DNA from: an uncultured Nitriliruptoraceae bacterium
GTDB taxonomy: Bacteria; Actinomycetota; Nitriliruptoria; Nitriliruptorales; Nitriliruptoraceae
Length of the DNA: 64,000 bases
Direction: 5' to 3'
NCBI GenBank assembly: GCA_913060655.1
Contig: CAJXTG010000001.1
Span: 1 to 64,000 of the forward strand
Position numbers and translations under genes: made by a program. The notes beneath the pieces are model-generated. The model had not been told where the DNA came from. It saw only the letters and a program-made list of their open reading frames with translations, and did no database searches. Position 1 is the stretch's first letter, and every line of letters begins with the position of its first letter. This document shows positions 20,402 to 47,082 of the stretch, piece after piece.

Positions 20402-21169
20402 TCAGGTCGACGGCGGGGCGAGCGGCTCGGCGTAGACGACGAGGTTGTCGGTGTAGCTGCGCTCGGTGCGGTCGAACTCGCCGCCGCACGTGATCAGCGC
20501 GAGCCGCTCCGGACCCGCCCACGTGAAGATGTCCGCGAGCGGCAGGTCGACCTTCGGATACTGGACGATCTCGGTGATGCGCCAGCGCTGCGTCGTCCCG
20601 TCGTCGAGGTCGACCTCGATCGTGTCGCCGGTGCGCAGGTCGCGCAGGTCGTAGAGGACCCCGCGGCCCTGCGTGCGCGAGTCGACGTGGCCGGCGAGCA
20701 CCGCCGTGCCCGTCGTCCCCGGCACGACGCCGAGCCCGTCCGGGTCGTACCAGCCGACCTCGGCGACCCGCTCGGGGATCTCCATCGCCCCGTCGTCCTC
20801 GAGGCCGACGGGCACGACCGGCGCGTCCACCGCGATCGCCCCGATGCGCACCGCGAGCGGGGTGGGCCGCGCCGGGAGGGCGGGGGGCGGCGCCTGCGGC
20901 GTGGCGTCCGGCGCGGTGTCGGACGTGCCGGCGTCGGGATCCGTGCCGGGGTCGGTGCCGGGGGTGGTGTCGGGGGTGGTGTCGTCGCGCCGGTCCGGGG
21001 TCACCGTCGTCGGCGCCGTGCCGGCCGCCGCGTCGGCCGCCGCATCGGCCGCCGGGGGGTCCTCGGCGGGTCCGACGGGGCGCGGCCCGACGATGACGGA
21101 GGCGGCGAGGAGGACGACGACGCCGACCGTGACCGCGAGGGGGCCGCGCAGCGCCGGAGGGATCCGCAC
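20402..21169 (-). CDS. Sortase, class F-like
   Basis: 255 residues from a GTG at 21169; the upstream GGAG is weak, but the frame before it has no membrane segment. One N-terminal membrane anchor (about 10-28) is followed by an extracellular Pro/Thr/Asp-rich spacer (about 35-100) and the sortase barrel. Catalytic His161 (LAGHVDS), Cys228 (LALITCGGEF) and an Arg in the following DRTERSYTDN segment are present, the ITCGGxFD context being typical of class F actinobacterial sortases. It would cleave a C-terminal LPxTG-like signal and attach the protein to the cell wall. No pilin or substrate is adjacent; the secreted protein at 38969 is the only candidate in the window. Confidence 0.88.
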   Translation of the reverse strand: MRIPPALRGPLAVTVGVVVLLAASVIVGPRPVGPAEDPPAADAAADAAAGTAPTTVTPDRRDDTTPDTTPGTDPGTDPDAGTSDTAPDATPQAPPPALPARPTPLAVRIGAIAVDAPVVPVGLEDDGAMEIPERVAEVGWYDPDGLGVVPGTTGTAVLAGHVDSRTQGRGVLYDLRDLRTGDTIEVDLDDGTTQRWRITEIVQYPKVDLPLADIFTWAGPERLALITCGGEFDRTERSYTDNLVVYAEPLAPPST

Positions 21170-21370: not shown

Positions 21371-22060
21371 ATGGAGTACGGGAACCCCACCATGCCGGTC
21401 GGCGTGCAGGACGCGCAGGTCCGCGCCGACTTCATGCGCCGCGTCTACACGCGGCTCGTCGCCGGTGTCGCCGCGTTCGTCGCCATCGAGACGTACCTGT
21501 TCACCTCCGGCCTCGCCGTGGCCATCACCGAGTTCGTGTTCGGCACCTCGTGGCTGCTGATCCTCGGCGGCTTCATGGTCGTGTCGTGGCTGTCGAACTC
21601 CGTCGCGCTGCGCGCCACGACGCCCGGCGCGGAGTGGGGCGGCTACCTGCTGCTCGTCGCCGCGAACGCGCTGATCTTCGCGCCGATGCTCGTCATCGCC
21701 GAGCTGCAGGTCCCCGGTGCGATCGCCCAGGCCGGGCAGTACGCCGTCGGCGGGTTCGTCATCCTGTCGGTGATCGCCCACCGCAGCTCGCGCGACTTCA
21801 CGTGGCTCGGGGCGGCGCTGCGCTGGTTCGGCATCCTCGCGCTCGTCGCGATCGTCCTCTCGGTGTTCACCGGGTTCGCGCTGGGCACCTGGTTCTCGCT
21901 CGCGATGATCGGCTTCGCCGGCGCCGCGATCCTCTACGAGACGCAGGTCATCCTGCGGGAGACCCCGCCGGGGCGTGAGACGATCGCCGCGATGACGCTG
22001 TTCAGCTCGCTCGCCCTGCTGTTCTGGTACCTGCTGCGCCTGTTCATGGCGCGGCGCTGA
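21371..22060 (+). CDS. Bax inhibitor-1 / YccA family membrane protein
   Basis: 229 residues, ATG at 21371 preceded by GAGGAG. About seven hydrophobic segments fill the sequence, with the family markers GFVILSVIAHRSSRDFTWLGAAL, GFAGAAILYETQVIL (with the conserved Glu) and the C-terminal LFSSLALLFWYLLRLFMARR. These proteins are multi-pass inner-membrane proteins; characterised bacterial members act as pH-sensitive calcium leaks or modulate the FtsH protease. The N-terminal cytoplasmic segment is short. It stands alone on the plus strand, with the next gene 62 bases downstream. Physiological role unknown here. Confidence 0.9.
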   Translation: MEYGNPTMPVGVQDAQVRADFMRRVYTRLVAGVAAFVAIETYLFTSGLAVAITEFVFGTSWLLILGGFMVVSWLSNSVALRATTPGAEWGGYLLLVAANALIFAPMLVIAELQVPGAIAQAGQYAVGGFVILSVIAHRSSRDFTWLGAALRWFGILALVAIVLSVFTGFALGTWFSLAMIGFAGAAILYETQVILRETPPGRETIAAMTLFSSLALLFWYLLRLFMARR

Positions 22061-22122
22061 CCTCCCAGGGCCAGCCCGCGGTCCCCGCACGGCCCGCCTC
22101 GCGCCTCCCACGGCGCGTCGCC

Positions 22123-25017
22123 GTGTGGGTCGTCGCCGCCGCGCTCGCCTACGGGGCCGTGTGGGCGCTCGCCCAGTGGCGTGCCCCCGACACCGGTGCG
22201 GCGGCGGCCCGCGTCGAGGTCGTCGCCGTCGAGACGCCCACGTCCCCCGACGACCCCACCCCGATCGTGCTCGACGCGCAGCTGTCGATCCCCGCCGGGG
22301 TGAGCGCCGAGCGGCCCGCCCCCGCCGTCGTGCTGCTGCACGGGTTCGGCAGCGACCGCACCAGCCAGGAGGCGCGCGCCCGCGCGCTCGTCGGCCGCGG
22401 CTACGTCGTGCTCGCCCCCAGCGCCCGCGGGTTCGGGGACTCCGGCGGGACGATCTCGCTCGCCGACCGGGACCGGGAGGGCCGTGACCTCGTCGCGCTC
22501 GTCGACCTGCTCGCCGGCCGCGACGAGGTGCTGCGCGACGGGGCCGGCGACCCGCGCGTCGCCCTCGTCGGCGCGTCCTACGGCGGCGGGCTCGCGCTCA
22601 TCGGCGGCGCGCTCGACACCCGCGTCGACGCCGTCGCCGCCATCACCGCCTGGCACGACCTCGCCGCCGCGCTCGCCCCCAACGCGGTGGGCGAGGCGGC
22701 GTCCGGACCGCTCAAGATCGGCTGGACCAGCCTGCTGTTCACCGCCAGCACCCTGCCCGACGGGGCGTCGCTCGGCGCGACGCTCGGGCTGCCCGGCGCC
22801 GCCGCCGAACCGGCCGCCCCCGTCACCGTCGAACGCTGCGGCACCTTCGCCCCCGACGTGTGCGCGCTCGCCGACCGTGCCGCCGTCGACGGGGTGCTCG
22901 ACGCCGAGGCGCGGCGCGTCCTCGCCGGCGCGTCGATCGCGACGCTGCCGCTGCGGCCCGTCCCGACGCTGCTCGTGCAGGGCCGTGACGACACGCTGTT
23001 CGGCGTCGACGCGGCGTTCGCGAACGCCACCGCGCTGGAGGCGGTCGGCGCGCCCGTCCGGCTGCGCCTCGCCGAGGGCGGCCACGGCACCGTCGGCGGC
23101 GAGGCGGCGACCGGCGGGCTCGCCGGCGAGGTCGACGCGTGGCTCGACCGCTGGCTCGGCGGTCCCGACGGCACCGGCGACGTCGGCGACGAGGGGGACG
23201 GGCGTGCCCGCGCCGGCGTGCTCGTCCACGACGCGGGCGACGAGCTCGCCGAGCTCGCCTGGCCCGACGTGCTCGGCGCGACCGGCACCCGCCCGCTCGC
23301 CCTCGTGCTCGACGCGCAGGGCGGGGCGCTGCTCGACACGCGGCCGGCGGCGACCACCCCGCAGGTCGCGACCGTGCTCACCCCCGCCGGCGGGCTGCCC
23401 GCCGCCCTCACCGCCGTCCCCGGCCTCGGCCCCATCGGCCAGCTCGCCGGGCTCGCCGGCATCAGCACCGTCGTCGACGTGCCCGGCCAGCACGTCGCGT
23501 TCACCAGCCGGCCGTTCGCCGAGGACCGGCTGCTGCTCGGACCGACGACCCTCGAGCTCGACGTGACCGCGGAGACCGGCGAGGCGCAGCTGTTCGCCCG
23601 GCTCACCAGCGTCGCACCCGGCGGGCTCACCACCATCATCGGCTCGTCGTTCACGCCGGTGCGGCTGCCCGACGTGTCCCGCGACCCGGCCGCACCGACC
23701 CGGGTCGGGATCACCCTGCCCGACGTCACCCACCGCATCGAGGCGGGGGAGCGGGTGCGCCTCACCCTCGCCACCACCGACCAGGGGTTCGCGAACCTCG
23801 TCGAGCCGGGCACGCTGCGCCTCGACGTCGCCGACGCGCGGCTGACGCTGCGCGGTCCCGGGCTCGCCGCACCGGCCGTCGCGCCCGCCGACGCGTCGGT
23901 CGCCTCCAGCGCCGGCCTCGCCGCCGTGTGGGACCAGGCGCCCGTCGTCGTCACCCTCGTCGTGCTGCTGCTCGTCGGCATCGTCGCCGCCGTCGTCGTC
24001 GGCCGGGTCCGCACCGTCCGCCGCGCACCGCTCGCCCCCGTCGCGGAGCGGCTCGCCGCGACCGCCGCCGGCGCCCCGCCCGTCGCCGTCCGCGGGCTCG
24101 TGAAGGAGTATGCGGACGGCACCCGTGCGGTCGACGGGCTCGACCTCACCGTCGAGGCCGGCCAGGTCGTCGGCCTCCTCGGCCCCAACGGGGCGGGCAA
24201 GACCACCACCCTGCGGATGCTGCTCGGGCTGATCACGCCGACCGCCGGGGAGGTCACCCTGTTCGGCGAGCGGATGCGCCCCGGCCACCCCGTCCTCGAA
24301 CGGGTCGGCGCGCTCGTCGAGGGGCCCGGCCTCGTCCCCGACCTGTCCGGACGCGTCAACCTCGAGCTGTTCTGGCGTGCGACCGGCCGGCCCATGGCCG
24401 AGGCCGACGTCGAGTGGGCGATGGGCGTCGCCGACCTCGGGCACGCCATCGACCGGCCGGTGCGCACCTACTCGCACGGCATGGCCCAGCGGCTCGCCAT
24501 CGCCCAGGCGCTGCTCGGCCGGCCCGAGCTGCTCGTCCTCGACGAGCCGACCGACGGGCTCGACCCCGAGCAGATCCGCGCGATGCGCCGCCTGCTCGTC
24601 CGCCTCGGCGCGGAGGGGCACACCGTGCTCGTGTCCTCCCACCTGCTCGCCGAGGTCGAGCAGACCTGCACCCACGCCGTCGTCGTGCTCGGCGGCACCG
24701 TCGTCGCCGCCGGACCGGTGTCCGAGCTCGGCGCGCGCGGCCGCACCCTCGTCGTCGAGGTCGACGACCGCGACCGTGCCCGCACGCTGCTCGCCGCCGT
24801 CGACGGCGTGCTCGACGTGGCGCTGGAGGGCGCCGGCGTCGTCGTCACCCTCGCCGACCCGGCGCGGGCCGCCGACGTCGTCGCCACCCTCGTCGGCGCC
24901 GGCCTGCGCGTCACCACCGCCAGCCGGCGCGGCAGGCTCGAGGACGCGTTCCTGCAGCTCACCGGCGCCGGCACAGCGGGCGACACGGCGGGCGACACGG
25001 GGAGGGGCGAGGCATGA
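22123..25017 (+). CDS. Fusion: secreted alpha/beta-hydrolase (S15/CocE-like) plus ABC exporter ATPase
   Basis: 964 residues from a GTG at 22123. Residues 1-18 form a signal anchor. Residues about 45-335 are an alpha/beta-hydrolase with oxyanion HGFGSD, nucleophile Ser152 (VGASYGGG), an Asp in QGRDDTLFG and a His in EGGHGTV. About 360-600 is a beta-rich domain like the C-terminal region of X-Pro dipeptidyl peptidases. A membrane span (about 607-630) follows, then an ABC ATPase: Walker A GPNGAGKT (about 687-694), unusual signature YSHGMAQRL (about 783), DEPTDGLDP. The order puts the hydrolase outside and the ATPase inside. The permease overlaps by four bases. Substrate unknown. Confidence 0.88.
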   Translation: MWVVAAALAYGAVWALAQWRAPDTGAAAARVEVVAVETPTSPDDPTPIVLDAQLSIPAGVSAERPAPAVVLLHGFGSDRTSQEARARALVGRGYVVLAPSARGFGDSGGTISLADRDREGRDLVALVDLLAGRDEVLRDGAGDPRVALVGASYGGGLALIGGALDTRVDAVAAITAWHDLAAALAPNAVGEAASGPLKIGWTSLLFTASTLPDGASLGATLGLPGAAAEPAAPVTVERCGTFAPDVCALADRAAVDGVLDAEARRVLAGASIATLPLRPVPTLLVQGRDDTLFGVDAAFANATALEAVGAPVRLRLAEGGHGTVGGEAATGGLAGEVDAWLDRWLGGPDGTGDVGDEGDGRARAGVLVHDAGDELAELAWPDVLGATGTRPLALVLDAQGGALLDTRPAATTPQVATVLTPAGGLPAALTAVPGLGPIGQLAGLAGISTVVDVPGQHVAFTSRPFAEDRLLLGPTTLELDVTAETGEAQLFARLTSVAPGGLTTIIGSSFTPVRLPDVSRDPAAPTRVGITLPDVTHRIEAGERVRLTLATTDQGFANLVEPGTLRLDVADARLTLRGPGLAAPAVAPADASVASSAGLAAVWDQAPVVVTLVVLLLVGIVAAVVVGRVRTVRRAPLAPVAERLAATAAGAPPVAVRGLVKEYADGTRAVDGLDLTVEAGQVVGLLGPNGAGKTTTLRMLLGLITPTAGEVTLFGERMRPGHPVLERVGALVEGPGLVPDLSGRVNLELFWRATGRPMAEADVEWAMGVADLGHAIDRPVRTYSHGMAQRLAIAQALLGRPELLVLDEPTDGLDPEQIRAMRRLLVRLGAEGHTVLVSSHLLAEVEQTCTHAVVVLGGTVVAAGPVSELGARGRTLVVEVDDRDRARTLLAAVDGVLDVALEGAGVVVTLADPARAADVVATLVGAGLRVTTASRRGRLEDAFLQLTGAGTAGDTAGDTGRGEA

Positions 25018-25823
25018 TCAACGAGCTGCAGCGGCAGCTGCGCCGCCGCCGCACCGCCGTCGGGCTCGCCGGCATCGCCGCGGTGCCCGTCATCCTCGCC
25101 GTCGCGTTCCTCATCGCCGACGCCGGTGCCGACGGGCCCAGCCAGACCGGCGACCCGACCGGCCTGTTCGGGTTCGCGACCGTGTCGGGGCTGAACTTCG
25201 CGCTGATGTCGACCGCGGCGACCGCCCCGTTCCTGCTGCTCAGCGTCGTCGCCCTGTTCGCCGGCGACACCGTGTCGAGCGAGGCGGCCGCCGGGTCGCT
25301 GCGCTCGCTGCTGTTCCGCCCCGTGCCGCGCGGCCGGCTGCTCGCCCGCAAGTTCGCCGTCGCGCTGCTGCTGTCGCTCGCCGCCGCGCTGCTCGTCCCG
25401 CTGTCGGGCATGCTCGCCGGCACCATCGCCTACGGCTGGGGTCCCGTCGTCACCCCGTTCGGGCCGCTCGCCGCCGGCGAGTCGCTGCTGCGCCTCGCCG
25501 CCATCACCGGCTACCTCGCGTGGAGCGCCGTGTGGGTCGCCGCCGTCGCCTTCGCCCTGTCGACCACGACCGACACGTCGGTGGGGGCGGTCGCCGGCAC
25601 CATCGTCATCGTCATCGTCGTGCAGATCCTCGACGCGATCACCGCGCTCGGCTGGCTGCGCACCATCCTGCCGGTGCACGAGGGCATCGCCTGGGTGGGG
25701 CTGCTCGCCGCTCCACCACGCTGGGGGGACCTCACCCGCGGGGTGCTGCTGCAGCTGCCCTACCTCGCCGCCGGTCTCGGCTTCGCGTGGTGGAACTTCC
25801 TGCGCAAGGACGTGCTCAGCTGA
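25014..25823 (+). CDS. ABC-2 type transporter permease
   Basis: 269 residues, ATG overlapping the fusion gene stop with GGGGAGGGG upstream. Six hydrophobic spans are visible: about 17-37, 65-85, 110-135, 150-175, 185-210 and 240-260. The segment VSSEAAAGSLRSLLFRPVPRGRLLARKFAV is the coupling and second-helix region typical of ABC-2/NatB-like permeases. It should form the membrane pore driven by the ATPase half of the upstream fusion, exporting an unknown molecule. Its stop overlaps the convergent EVE gene by eight bases. Confidence 0.88.
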   Translation: MINELQRQLRRRRTAVGLAGIAAVPVILAVAFLIADAGADGPSQTGDPTGLFGFATVSGLNFALMSTAATAPFLLLSVVALFAGDTVSSEAAAGSLRSLLFRPVPRGRLLARKFAVALLLSLAAALLVPLSGMLAGTIAYGWGPVVTPFGPLAAGESLLRLAAITGYLAWSAVWVAAVAFALSTTTDTSVGAVAGTIVIVIVVQILDAITALGWLRTILPVHEGIAWVGLLAAPPRWGDLTRGVLLQLPYLAAGLGFAWWNFLRKDVLS

Positions 25824-27909: not shown

Positions 27910-28350
27910 ATGGGACGCATCGTGGTGGGCATCGACGCCTCGGAGCCGTCGCTCCGGGCGCTGCGCTGGGCCGTGGACGAGGCGCGCCTGCGCGGCGCCG
28001 ACCTGGAGCTCGTCCACGCGTTCCCCCGGCCCGAGCTGATCGGGATGACGATGGTCGTCACCCTCCCCAGCGACGACGAGCTGCGCGTCGCCTCCGAGCA
28101 GGTCCTCGACGAGGCCGTCACCGCCGTCGGCGGGATCGACGACGTGCCGCTCACCCGGCGGGTCGAGGCCGGCGGGCCGGCGAGCGTGCTCGTCGACGCC
28201 GCCGCCGACGCCGACCTGCTCGTCCTCGGCGCCCGCGGCCTCGGCGGGTTCCGCGGCCTGCTGCTCGGCTCCGTCACCCAGCAGGTCATCGCCCACGCCC
28301 CCTGCCCCGTCGTCGTCCTCACCGCCGACGCGGACGGGCAGGGTGACTGA
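27910..28350 (+). CDS. Universal stress protein (UspA family)
   Basis: 146 residues, ATG at 27910 preceded by GGGAGGAG. One Usp domain: N-terminal strand RIVVGIDASEPSLRALRWAV and the ATP-binding signature GARGLGGFRGLLLGSVTQQVIAHAPCPVVV (the G-2X-G-9X-G-S/T pattern), so it is of the ATP-binding type. It sits 200 bases from the divergent CBS gene and overlaps the next gene by eight bases. Likely induced under stasis or hypoxia by analogy with actinobacterial homologues; no DosR-type box was identified. Confidence 0.93.
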   Translation: MGRIVVGIDASEPSLRALRWAVDEARLRGADLELVHAFPRPELIGMTMVVTLPSDDELRVASEQVLDEAVTAVGGIDDVPLTRRVEAGGPASVLVDAAADADLLVLGARGLGGFRGLLLGSVTQQVIAHAPCPVVVLTADADGQGD

Positions 28351-29059
28351 GGGGCGGCTCGCGCTCGGCGACGGGATCGACGTCGCCGCGACGCTGCACC
28401 GGCCGGAGGGTCCCGCGGGCCCCCGCACGCCGGTGCTGCTGCTGCCCGGCGCCCGCGGCGACCCCGACGCCGCCCACCTCGTCGCCGTCGCCGACGTGCT
28501 CGCCACCGCCGGCCACCCCGTCGTGCGAGCGGCGCTGACGCCACGTCCACCCGGGCAGGGTGTCGTGGGCACGTCCGCACGTGCGGTCGAACGGTGCCGG
28601 CAGGTGCTCGCCGCCGCCCGCACCCACGTCGCCGCGCAGGTCACCGGCGTCGCCGCCGACGCCGGCTGGATCGTCGGCGGCGCGTCCTACGGCGGCCGCG
28701 TCGCGAGCCTCACCGTCGCCGACGCCGGCGGTGCCGCGCTCGGCGTCGTCGGCCTGCTGCTCGTCGCCTACCCGCTGCACCCGCCGGGCCGGCCCGACCG
28801 GCTGCGCGTCGCCCACTTCGGCGGCATCGACGTGCCGGTGCTCATGCTGTCGGGCGACGCCGACCCGTTCCTCACCGAGGAGCTCCTCGCCGCCCACGCC
28901 GGCGACCTCGCCGGCCCGCTCACCCGGCTCGTCGTGCCCGGTGGCGCCCACGACCTGGCGGTCAGCGGACGTCGCGCCCCCGACGGGCGGCGCCGCGACC
29001 CGGCCGCCGCGGTCGCCGAGCAGGCCGACGCGCTCGTCGCCTGGGCCGGGGCACGCTGA
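28343..29059 (+). CDS. Alpha/beta-hydrolase (KANL3/Tex30-like, dienelactone hydrolase-type fold)
   Basis: 238 residues from a GTG that overlaps the universal stress gene by eight bases. A compact alpha/beta-hydrolase without lid: LLLPGARGDPDAAH (oxyanion region), nucleophile elbow GGASYGGR, acid in MLSGDADPFL and His in VPGGAHDLAV, matching the Tex30/KANL3 family of small cytoplasmic hydrolases. Substrate unknown. Coupling to the universal stress gene suggests co-expression under stress. Confidence 0.82.
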   Translation: MTEGRLALGDGIDVAATLHRPEGPAGPRTPVLLLPGARGDPDAAHLVAVADVLATAGHPVVRAALTPRPPGQGVVGTSARAVERCRQVLAAARTHVAAQVTGVAADAGWIVGGASYGGRVASLTVADAGGAALGVVGLLLVAYPLHPPGRPDRLRVAHFGGIDVPVLMLSGDADPFLTEELLAAHAGDLAGPLTRLVVPGGAHDLAVSGRRAPDGRRRDPAAAVAEQADALVAWAGAR

Positions 29060-44066: not shown

Positions 44067-44765
44067 GTGATCCGACTCGTCGACGCCACCAAGGCGTTCC
44101 GGCGTGGCCGCGACGTCGAGGTCGTCGCGCTCGACGCGGTGTCGCTGGAGGTCACCAAGGGCGAGTTCGTGTTCGTCGTCGGCCCGTCGGGCTCGGGCAA
44201 GTCGACGTTCATGCGTCTGCTCACGCGTGAGCAGGTCGCCGACTCCGGTGAGGTCTGGGTCTCGGGCAAGAACCTCAAGAAGCTGCGCCGCTGGAAGGTG
44301 CCGCTGCTGCGCCGCGAGATCGGCTACGTGTTCCAGGACTTCAAGCTGCTGCCGAACAAGACGGTGCGGGAGAACGTGTCGTTCGCGCTGGAGGTCATCG
44401 GCCGTGGCCGCAAGGAGATCCGCGCGCGCGTCCCGGAGGTGCTCGAGCTCGTCGGGCTGACCGACAAGGCCGAGTCGCTCCCGCACGAGCTGTCCGGCGG
44501 GCAGCAGCAGCGCGTGTCGATCGCGCGCGCGTTCGTCAACAACCCGCGCCTGCTGCTGTGCGACGAGCCGACGGGCAACCTCGACCCGGCGACGTCGGTC
44601 GGCATCATGAAGCTGCTCGACCGCATCAACCGCACCGGCACGACCGTCGTCATGGCGACCCACGACCAGCAGATCGTCGACTCGATGCGCCGCAGGGTCG
44701 TCGAGCTCGAGGACGGCCGGGTGGTCCGCGACCAGGTCCGCGGCGTCTACGGCTACGGAGCATGA
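44067..44765 (+). CDS. ftsE: Cell-division ATP-binding protein FtsE
   Basis: 232 residues from a GTG at 44067 with a weak AGGA upstream. ABC ATPase of the MacB-like mechanotransmission class: Walker A GPSGSGKS (about 39-46), Q-loop [12 protein letters not shown], signature [14 protein letters not shown], Walker [14 protein letters not shown], switch ATHDQ. The [10 protein letters not shown] segment is characteristic of FtsE. It does not transport; with FtsX it transmits ATP hydrolysis to an extracellular peptidoglycan hydrolase or activator. ftsX follows after four bases. Confidence 0.96.
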
Positions 44766-44769
44766 GCTG

Positions 44770-45660
44770 ATGGCCCGCTGGCGCTACGTGCTCGTCGAGG
44801 CCCTCGCCGGCCTGCGCCGCAACCTGCTGATGTCGTTCGCGGTCGTGCTGTCCATCACCGTGTCATTGACGCTGCTCGGCGCGTCGCTGCTGCTCAGCGA
44901 GCAGGTCGAGCTCGCCACCGACGACTGGACCGGCCGCGTCGAGGTGTCCATCTTCCTGTGCGACGACCGGGCGTGCCCGGCGATCACCACCCAGCAGCGC
45001 GACCAGCTCGAGGCCGACCTCGAGGCGAACCCGGTCGTCGCCGAGGTCTTCTACGAGTCGAAGCGGGAGGCGTACGACCGCTTCACCCGCCTGTTCGCCG
45101 ACCAGCCGACCCTCATCGAGGCGATCGACGTCGCGACGCTGCCCGCCTCGTTCCGCGTGAAGCTCGAGAACCCGCAGCTGTTCGGCGTCATCCGCGACCA
45201 GTTCGCCGCCTACCCGGGCGTGGAGGAGATCGTCGACCAGCGTGACGTGCTCAACCAGTTCCTCCGCTTCACCACGCTCGTGCGCAACGCCGCGCTCGCC
45301 ATCGCGCTCGTGCAGCTGCTCGCCGCCGGCGTGCTCATCGCCAACACCATCCGCGTCGCGGCCTACGCGCGCCGCGAGCAGACCGCCATCATGAAGCTCG
45401 TCGGTGCGGCCAACTGGTACGTGCGGCTCCCGTTCGTCGTCGAGGGCATCATCGCCGGCGCGCTCGGCACGGCCGCCGCGTGGGGGATCCTGTACGGGAC
45501 CGTGCCGCGCGTCACCCGCGACCTCGCCCGCGAGGTCGAGCTGCTGCCGTTCATCGGCGTGGACCAGGTCGTCGCCATCGCCCCGCTGATGGCGCTGGCC
45601 GGGGTGGGCATCGCCGCGCTCGCATCGACCCTCGCGCTGCGCCGCTTCCTCCGCGTCTGA
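44770..45660 (+). CDS. ftsX: Cell-division protein FtsX
   Basis: 296 residues, ATG at 44770, four bases after ftsE. Four membrane helices: about 20-42, then three at about 175-195, 225-245 and 265-288. Between the first two is an extracellular domain of about 130 residues with CDDRACPAI and the conserved YESKREAYDRFTRLFADQP motif. That loop recruits the peptidoglycan hydrolase partner, most likely the M23 protein encoded next. The overall architecture and gene order fit actinobacterial FtsX. Confidence 0.95.
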   Translation: MARWRYVLVEALAGLRRNLLMSFAVVLSITVSLTLLGASLLLSEQVELATDDWTGRVEVSIFLCDDRACPAITTQQRDQLEADLEANPVVAEVFYESKREAYDRFTRLFADQPTLIEAIDVATLPASFRVKLENPQLFGVIRDQFAAYPGVEEIVDQRDVLNQFLRFTTLVRNAALAIALVQLLAAGVLIANTIRVAAYARREQTAIMKLVGAANWYVRLPFVVEGIIAGALGTAAAWGILYGTVPRVTRDLAREVELLPFIGVDQVVAIAPLMALAGVGIAALASTLALRRFLRV

Positions 45661-45716
45661 GGCGCGCCCGCCCGTTCGGACAGCCCCGCCACCGCGGTGC
45701 CACCCCCCGCCGCGCC

Positions 45717-45722
45717 TACGCT
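45717..45722 (+). promoter_or_regulatory. Putative -10 element (TACGCT) for the M23 peptidase gene
   Basis: TACGCT is 100 bases before the M23 start in the 162-base gap after ftsX, upstream of the CAGGGCCTGA repeats, which would then be in the 5' leader. Confidence 0.35.
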
Positions 45723-45762
45723 CGTCCCGTCGAGCCGTCGCCACGGACGTCCGTGTCCGGAC

Positions 45763-45812
45763 CAGGGCCTGATCACGGTCTGACCAGGGCCTGAGCAGGG
45801 CCTGAGCAGGGG
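45763..45812 (+). repeat. CAGGGCCTGA repeats at 11-bp periodicity before the M23 peptidase gene
   Basis: CAGGGCCTGA occurs at 45763-45772, 45785-45794 and 45796-45805, with a partial copy (CAGGGG) at 45807. Offsets are 22, 11 and 11 bases. The set ends at the ribosome-binding site of the M23 gene. Each unit is close to a palindrome. Confidence 0.65.
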
Positions 45813-45822
45813 AGGGGTGCGC

Positions 45823-47082
45823 GTGCGAGTCCCGTCCGTCCGCACCCGCGCCCACGGTCCCGTCGCCGCGGCGCTCGCGCTCGCCCTCGTCGCCGGGGTC
45901 CTCGCCGGTCCGGCCCCCGCGCCGGCCGACGCGCAGGTCGACGAGCTGCGCGAGAAGCTCGAGCAGACCGCCGCCGAACGGGCCGCGGCCGCCCGCGAGC
46001 TGCGGGAGATCCGCACCCGCGAGCAGTCGGCCCGCGAACGCTTCAACGTCGCCCGCCGCGAGCACGACGCCGCCGTCGCCGAGCTGCGCCGCATCGACGA
46101 CGAGCTCGAGCGTGCACAGGCGGAGCTCGCGCTGGCCCGCGAGCGCGCCGCCGAGACCCGTGCCGACGTCGCCCGGGCCGAGGAGGACGTCGCCACCGCC
46201 ACCGACGCGCTCGAGGACCGGCGCGGACGGTTCGAGTCCCGGGTCGTCGCCGCGTTCAAGTACGGGCAGGTCGCCCTGACCGACGTGTTCGCGTCCAGCC
46301 GCGACATCAACGACCTGATCGTCACCACCACCTACGTCAGCGCCGTCGTCGAGAACGACCGGAGCATGGTCGACGAGATGGCCACGCTGCTCGCCGACCT
46401 CGCCGCGCAGCGGGAGGCCGCCGTCGCCGCCCGCGCCGAGGCCGCGCGTGCCGAGGACGAGGCGACCCGCATCGAGGCGGAGGTCGCCGGCCGGCTCGCC
46501 GACCAGCAGGCCGTCGCCGCGGAGGTCGAGCGGACCGAGGCGTCGCTCGCCCGGTCGCTGCGTGAGCTGCGCGAGGACGCCGACGCGCTCGAGGAGCACC
46601 TGAAGGCGCTCGAGGCGTCGCAGGCCGTGATCGAGCAGCAGCTGCGCGACGCCGAGGCGGCCGAACGTGCCGGCCGCGGCGTCGGCGACACCGGCTCCGG
46701 CTGGGTCCGTCCGACCAACGGCTGGCTGTCGTCCCCGTTCGGCAACCGGGTCCACCCGATCCTGCGCACCACCCGCCTGCACGCCGGCGTGGACCTCGCC
46801 GCGCTCACCGGGACGCCCATCATCGCGTCGCGCGGGGGGACGGTCACCTTCGTCGGCTGGATGTCGGGCTACGGCTACACCGTCATCGTCTACCACGGGG
46901 GCGGGCTCGCGACGCTGTACGCGCACATGTCGGCGTTCTCCGTCCAGCAGGACCAGTACATCGCACAGGGCGGGCGGCTCGGCTCGGTCGGCATGACCGG
47001 GACCGCCACCGGCCCGCACCTGCACTTCGAGGTGCGCAGCAACGGGGTGCCCCAGAACCCCTGCGGCTACATCTCCTGCTGA
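45823..47082 (+). CDS. Coiled-coil M23 (LytM) peptidoglycan endopeptidase, probable FtsEX partner
   Basis: 419 residues; the GTG at 45823 is chosen because GGAGGG ends six bases before it, while the GTG at 45817 directly abuts that site. A signal peptide (about 1-38) precedes two long coiled-coil blocks (about 40-280, Ala/Glu/Arg-rich) with a short non-helical break near 145-180. The C-terminal M23 domain has intact zinc ligands: HAGVD, YAHMS and GPHLHFEV. This is the EnvC-like architecture and it follows ftsEX, so FtsX probably activates it for septal wall cleavage. Because the zinc site is complete, it may be an active enzyme and not only an activator. Confidence 0.92.
   Translation: MRVPSVRTRAHGPVAAALALALVAGVLAGPAPAPADAQVDELREKLEQTAAERAAAARELREIRTREQSARERFNVARREHDAAVAELRRIDDELERAQAELALARERAAETRADVARAEEDVATATDALEDRRGRFESRVVAAFKYGQVALTDVFASSRDINDLIVTTTYVSAVVENDRSMVDEMATLLADLAAQREAAVAARAEAARAEDEATRIEAEVAGRLADQQAVAAEVERTEASLARSLRELREDADALEEHLKALEASQAVIEQQLRDAEAAERAGRGVGDTGSGWVRPTNGWLSSPFGNRVHPILRTTRLHAGVDLAALTGTPIIASRGGTVTFVGWMSGYGYTVIVYHGGGLATLYAHMSAFSVQQDQYIAQGGRLGSVGMTGTATGPHLHFEVRSNGVPQNPCGYISC

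Follow-up and report, generated by a model that had tools for sequence, protein, structure and literature searches.

The analyzed stretch of DNA from an uncultured member of the Nitriliruptoraceae (64,000 nucleotides, hereafter referred to as the window) encodes a protein in which a serine alpha/beta hydrolase and an ABC-type ATPase are parts of a single polypeptide. From the N to the C terminus, this protein consists of a membrane anchor, the alpha/beta hydrolase, a beta-sandwich, a transmembrane helix, and the ABC ATPase, and its gene is followed by a gene for an ABC-2 permease (Table 1). The presence of a hydrolase, a membrane span, and an ABC ATPase in one chain, proposed in the earlier note on this DNA, is confirmed by the Pfam domains and by the recurrence of the fusion in related genomes.

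Table 1. Features of the fused gene and its permease partner (window positions; residues are those of the fused protein)
Feature	Position	Strand	Details
Candidate true N-terminus of the fused protein	22057-22122	+	In-frame CTG overlapping upstream TGA (CTGA)
Fused gene (hydrolase + ABC ATPase)	22123-25017	+	964 codons from GTG
First transmembrane span (predicted signal anchor, N-in)	22117-22179	+	About residues 1-19; hydropathy 2.08; helix 2-19 in model
Alpha/beta hydrolase core, predicted extracellular	22210-23157	+	Triad S152-D290-H321; HG motif 73-74
Cysteine pair C239/C247	22837-22863	+	Invariant, 89/89 at both positions
PepX_C-type beta-sandwich	23218-23856	+	Pfam PepX_C; mostly beta in model
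Second transmembrane span, predicted to enter the cytoplasm	23947-24009	+	Residues 608-629; hydropathy 3.38; helix 609-629 in model
ABC ATPase domain with C-terminal extension	24079-24963	+	Pfam ABC_tran
Walker A	24181-24204	+	ATPase motif
YSHGM	24469-24483	+	ATPase motif
Walker B D-E	24541-24546	+	ATPase motif
H-loop	24640-24642	+	ATPase motif
ABC-2 permease, NosY-like, 269 aa	25014-25823	+	ATG overlaps fused-gene stop (ATGA)

Domain organization and membrane topology

The reading frame of the fused gene is stop-free from position 21979, and its third-position GC content of 0.97 across the entire ORF indicates a single coding frame. Pfam recognizes a Peptidase_S15 domain at residues 49-321 (E 1.1e-13; 52 bits against a gathering score of 23), a PepX_C domain at residues 454-562 (E 1.5e-11; 45.1 bits against 22.5), and an ABC_tran domain at residues 671-810 (E 4.9e-29, above the curated cut-off). 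The full-length model has a mean pLDDT of 83.4 and a pTM of 0.73. Its closest solved structure is the lipase PaL (8yzn, E 2.4e-28), which is also the top sequence match by profile (E 1.9e-34); a literature look-up of this lipase found nothing. The description of the hydrolase as S15-like therefore holds by Pfam, but the nearest structure is a lipase, ahead of cocaine esterase, X-prolyl dipeptidyl aminopeptidase, and alpha-amino acid ester hydrolase. The catalytic triad, assigned by alignment, is invariant in all 89 homologues, and so is the HG motif (H73-G74), which apparently lies where an oxyanion residue is expected. In CocE, the oxyanion-hole tyrosine is Tyr44. A second, small alpha/beta hydrolase (Abhydrolase_11) is encoded elsewhere in the window, at 28343-29056, adjoining a universal-stress-like gene.

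The Walker A lysine, the Walker B aspartate and glutamate, and the H-loop histidine are likewise invariant in the 89 homologues. With both the triad and the ATPase motifs intact throughout, the two halves appear to have been selected as enzymes, and both look active. The YSHGM motif, singled out previously as a departure from LSGGQ, is indeed present (residues 783-787) but is not unusual: the signature of the fused homologues is YS[HQ]GM, with YSQGM in 68 and YSHGM in 21 of the 89, and the unfused relatives described below have YSHGM, YSQGM, or YSSGM. Its status as an oddity was accordingly rejected in favor of normal variation within this branch. The ATPase scores 176.7 bits with the DrrA subfamily model TIGR01188 (NCBIfam), below the curated cut-off of 312.45, and in the full-length model it matches the NosF structure. 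The permease matches only the ABC2_membrane_2/4 families in Pfam; its model (pLDDT 87.3) has six membrane helices joined by short loops and lacks an extracellular domain like that of FtsX, and its nearest structure is NosY, followed by PmtCD.

Rather than the one membrane span previously assigned to the fused protein, two were found, and both are conserved. The first, located before the hydrolase, reaches a hydropathy of at least 1.4 in all 88 scored homologues, and the second, located before the ATPase, does so in 87 of the 88, the exception being at 1.39. The mean numbers of Lys/Arg residues in the flanks of the first span are 3.35 before versus 0.76 after, and those of the second span are 0.69 before versus 4.23 after. 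According to the positive-inside rule, this bias at both spans indicates an external hydrolase and an internal ATPase. The ectodomains of 88 of 88 homologues contain exactly two cysteines, C239 and C247, which probably form an extracellular disulfide. Several stand-alone relatives of the hydrolase from the same class are predicted to be anchored to the cell wall, with LPATG-type sortase tails (L121, L122, L126, and L129), an LPVTG tail (L134), or CW_binding_2 wall domains detected by Pfam (L136 and L140). An extracellular hydrolase and a cytoplasmic ATPase are thus strongly indicated, and the proposed arrangement of these two domains with a coupled permease is supported by the charge bias, the invariant cysteine pair, and the wall-anchored relatives.

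The relatives L136, L137, L140, and L125 are secreted S15 hydrolases, mostly with PepX_C, that have CW_binding_2 repeats at their C termini (recognized by sequence in L137 and L125, in the latter by eye). A sortase gene (PF04203; 20405-22111 on the minus strand, domain at about 20423-20848) is located two genes upstream of the fused gene, in a class in which stand-alone hydrolase relatives carry sortase-type LPATG tails.

The GTG at 22123 falls within the first membrane span, and the real start of the fused gene is probably upstream of it, by up to 66 bases. Upstream, the Bax1-I (BI-1-like) gene terminates in a CTGA overlap at 22057-22060, whose CTG shares the reading frame of the fused gene; the identical arrangement is seen in homologue L002, and a start at this codon would give back the arginines that precede the first span. 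Our guess, made from the sequence context, is that this CTG serves as the start codon, possibly coupled to the stop of the Bax1-I gene. A promoter and terminator scan returned no sites.

Distribution and origin of the fusion

A search of 61 related genomes recovered the fusion from the same genus as well as from several families belonging to the class, and 11 full-length fused copies from these genomes were aligned. A scan of the genome collection using only the hydrolase part as the query returned 80 loci (317 relatives overall). In 78 of the 80 loci, the ABC domain follows in the same frame and the permease gene comes directly after the fused gene; the other two loci end at contig ends. The hosts include Nitriliruptoraceae, Salsipaludibacter, Streptomyces, Kitasatospora, Pseudonocardia, Geodermatophilus, Actinoplanes, Rhodococcus, and Nocardioides, among others. 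Among 397 genomes sampled evenly over the phylum, matches at E<=1e-80 were obtained in 27, and about 24 of these carry the fusion (G114, G150, and G267, which have ATPase-only matches, were left out of this count). A frame error joining two genes had been named as an outcome that would undo the fusion. Given its recurrence in same-class genomes, in the 78 collection loci, and in an annotated plasmid copy from Tsukamurella (WP_232066410.1), such an error, or a gene-prediction artefact with the same effect, can be dismissed with near certainty. Despite its small size (1.67 Mb, 96.6% complete), the genome that contains the window (G000) has retained the operon, as have two of its three sampled genus mates; the window is very GC-rich.

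The Tsukamurella protein is annotated as 'alpha/beta fold hydrolase', followed by 'ABC transporter permease'. Full-text searches of an open-access library found no description of a hydrolase-ABC fusion, and the part seen of a paper on alpha/beta-hydrolase classification (PMC11878206) does not mention one. The family is known in databases, in one annotated record under a hydrolase name, while the searches of that library turned up no account of the fusion itself.

Three genomes (loci L145, L146, and L147) encode an unfused two-gene version of the exporter that lacks the hydrolase and consists of an ATPase frame of 310-383 residues followed by a permease that is 35-44% identical to that in the window. 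Judging from these sequences, the exporter core can exist with no hydrolase attached. To account for the fusion, the exporter tree requires two state changes, and placing all fused copies in one clade of this tree is marginally rejected (p-AU 0.04), so that it is compatible with either two gains or a gain and a loss. In the hydrolase tree, every fused copy falls on one side of a branch, which has weak support (68/45). The most economical interpretation is a single ancient fusion, with the hydrolase lost in one lineage.

Predicted function

The two genes could be expected to form an exporter of the ABC-2 type, with a probable 2+2 stoichiometry and an ecto-enzyme on each of the ATPase chains. 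The serine hydrolase would be held on the outer face, beside the permease opening, by the N-terminal anchor and the second helix. Powered by ATP hydrolysis, the permease would carry its substrate to the outside, where the tethered enzyme would cut an ester or amide bond of the emerging compound, resulting in its maturation or inactivation; the likeliest substrate is a small molecule or peptide that is lipophilic or acylated. In short, we infer that the fused protein links export to processing. An exporter of this kind, with an esterase or peptidase at the permease mouth that processes what leaves, appears to have an even chance of being the correct reading. It is supported by the domain content, the intact triad and ATPase motifs in 89 of 89 homologues, and the constant permease partner, whose gene in the window has the ATGA overlap; by the cysteine pair, the positive-inside charges, and the wall-anchored stand-alone relatives; and by the existence of the unfused two-gene exporter and the precedent of ZmaM, PamJ, and EdeA (PMC9889268, PMC4234257). 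Two observations were counted against this reading: a conserved biosynthetic or precursor neighbour was not found in 28 loci, where the commonest neighbour family (by heuristic gene calls) occurs in only 4, and the nearest solved relative of the permease and ATPase is NosFY. The latter belongs to NosDFY, which is not known as a conventional exporter of small molecules.

The extracytoplasmic partner with which NosFY works, NosD, and the physical link through one helix, which would suit force transfer, favor a mechanism without export (mechanotransmission), in which internal ATP cycles switch the activity or position of the outside hydrolase in the way FtsEX switches cell-wall hydrolases. However, the permease lacks an FtsX-like extracellular domain, and the unfused relatives retain the ATPase and permease in the absence of the hydrolase, so that the core is probably functional by itself; this mechanism seems unlikely. 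Alternatively, the hydrolase could be an independent surface esterase or peptidase, used in nutrition or detoxification, that shares its anchor with the exporter but not its substrate. The wall-anchored stand-alone relatives presumably do a surface job alone, the 28 loci have no neighbour genes in common, and one exporter lineage is missing the hydrolase. Nevertheless, 78 of 80 loci, spread over many families, retain the fusion, always with the permease, and the trees fit a single old fusion that has stayed together, leaving simple tethering a somewhat unlikely explanation.

Returning to the exporter with an ecto-hydrolase, its extension to a distinct class of 'exo-hydrolase ABC exporters' common among actinobacteria, with an alpha/beta hydrolase at the pump exit that is obligatorily coupled to transport and processes each substrate on its way out, is more tentative, falling somewhat short of an even chance. 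If the coupling is real, these genes offer a simple two-gene system for studying the linkage of export and processing in common culturable genera, such as Streptomyces and Rhodococcus, and they might serve as a marker for processed molecules, on the surface or secreted, that are not yet known. Many actinobacteria carry the family, whose name conceals the transporter half.

Comparison with known systems

The S15/CocE-type hydrolases and the lipase PaL share with the fused protein the triad and the layout of a hydrolase plus a beta-sandwich, but their chains have no ABC domain, whereas the hydrolase of the fused protein is flanked by two membrane spans. The exporter half resembles ABC-2 systems of the DrrAB, NosFY, and PmtCD type in ATPase sequence (the DrrA model and NosF) and permease fold (NosY and PmtCD). 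Like DrrAB, it combines an ATPase that has the Walker A and B, signature, and H-loop motifs with an adjacent six-helix ABC-2 permease. To our knowledge, no exporter of this type carries a hydrolase on the ATPase chain. FtsEX similarly links an inside ABC ATPase to an outside enzyme, but its hydrolase is separate and its FtsX-type permease has an extracellular domain of its own, whereas the permease in the window belongs to the ABC2_membrane families only. An ordinary system with an ABC transporter plus an external hydrolase is encoded in the same window, at 44067-47079, where an ftsE-like ATPase, ftsX, and an M23 peptidase with a PcsB-like coiled coil come in a row.

The closest parallel found in papers is with ZmaM, PamJ, and EdeA, in which an extracytoplasmic beta-lactamase-family peptidase is fused to an ABC half-transporter (PMC9889268, PMC4234257). 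The fused protein similarly unites an extracytoplasmic serine hydrolase, a membrane part, and an ABC transporter domain in one chain, and it has one of the features of type II prodrug-activating peptidases, an ABC domain on the same chain as a predicted extracytoplasmic peptidase. However, these peptidases belong to PF00144, whereas the fused protein has an S15/PepX_C alpha/beta hydrolase and no PF00144 match in Pfam; they contain about 9 membrane helices in the chain, as opposed to 2 helices and a separate ABC-2 permease; and they are encoded within biosynthetic (NRPS/PKS) clusters. No biosynthetic genes were recognized near the fused gene, whose neighbours are the Bax1-I gene and the sortase, and a link to a biosynthetic cluster was rejected, the neighbours not being conserved across the 28 loci. 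Because its hydrolase family and membrane part are different and it is not in a biosynthetic cluster, the fused protein is not a member of this group. Judging by its anatomy, it may nonetheless work in a similar way, as an instance of the ZmaM-type principle built from unrelated parts.
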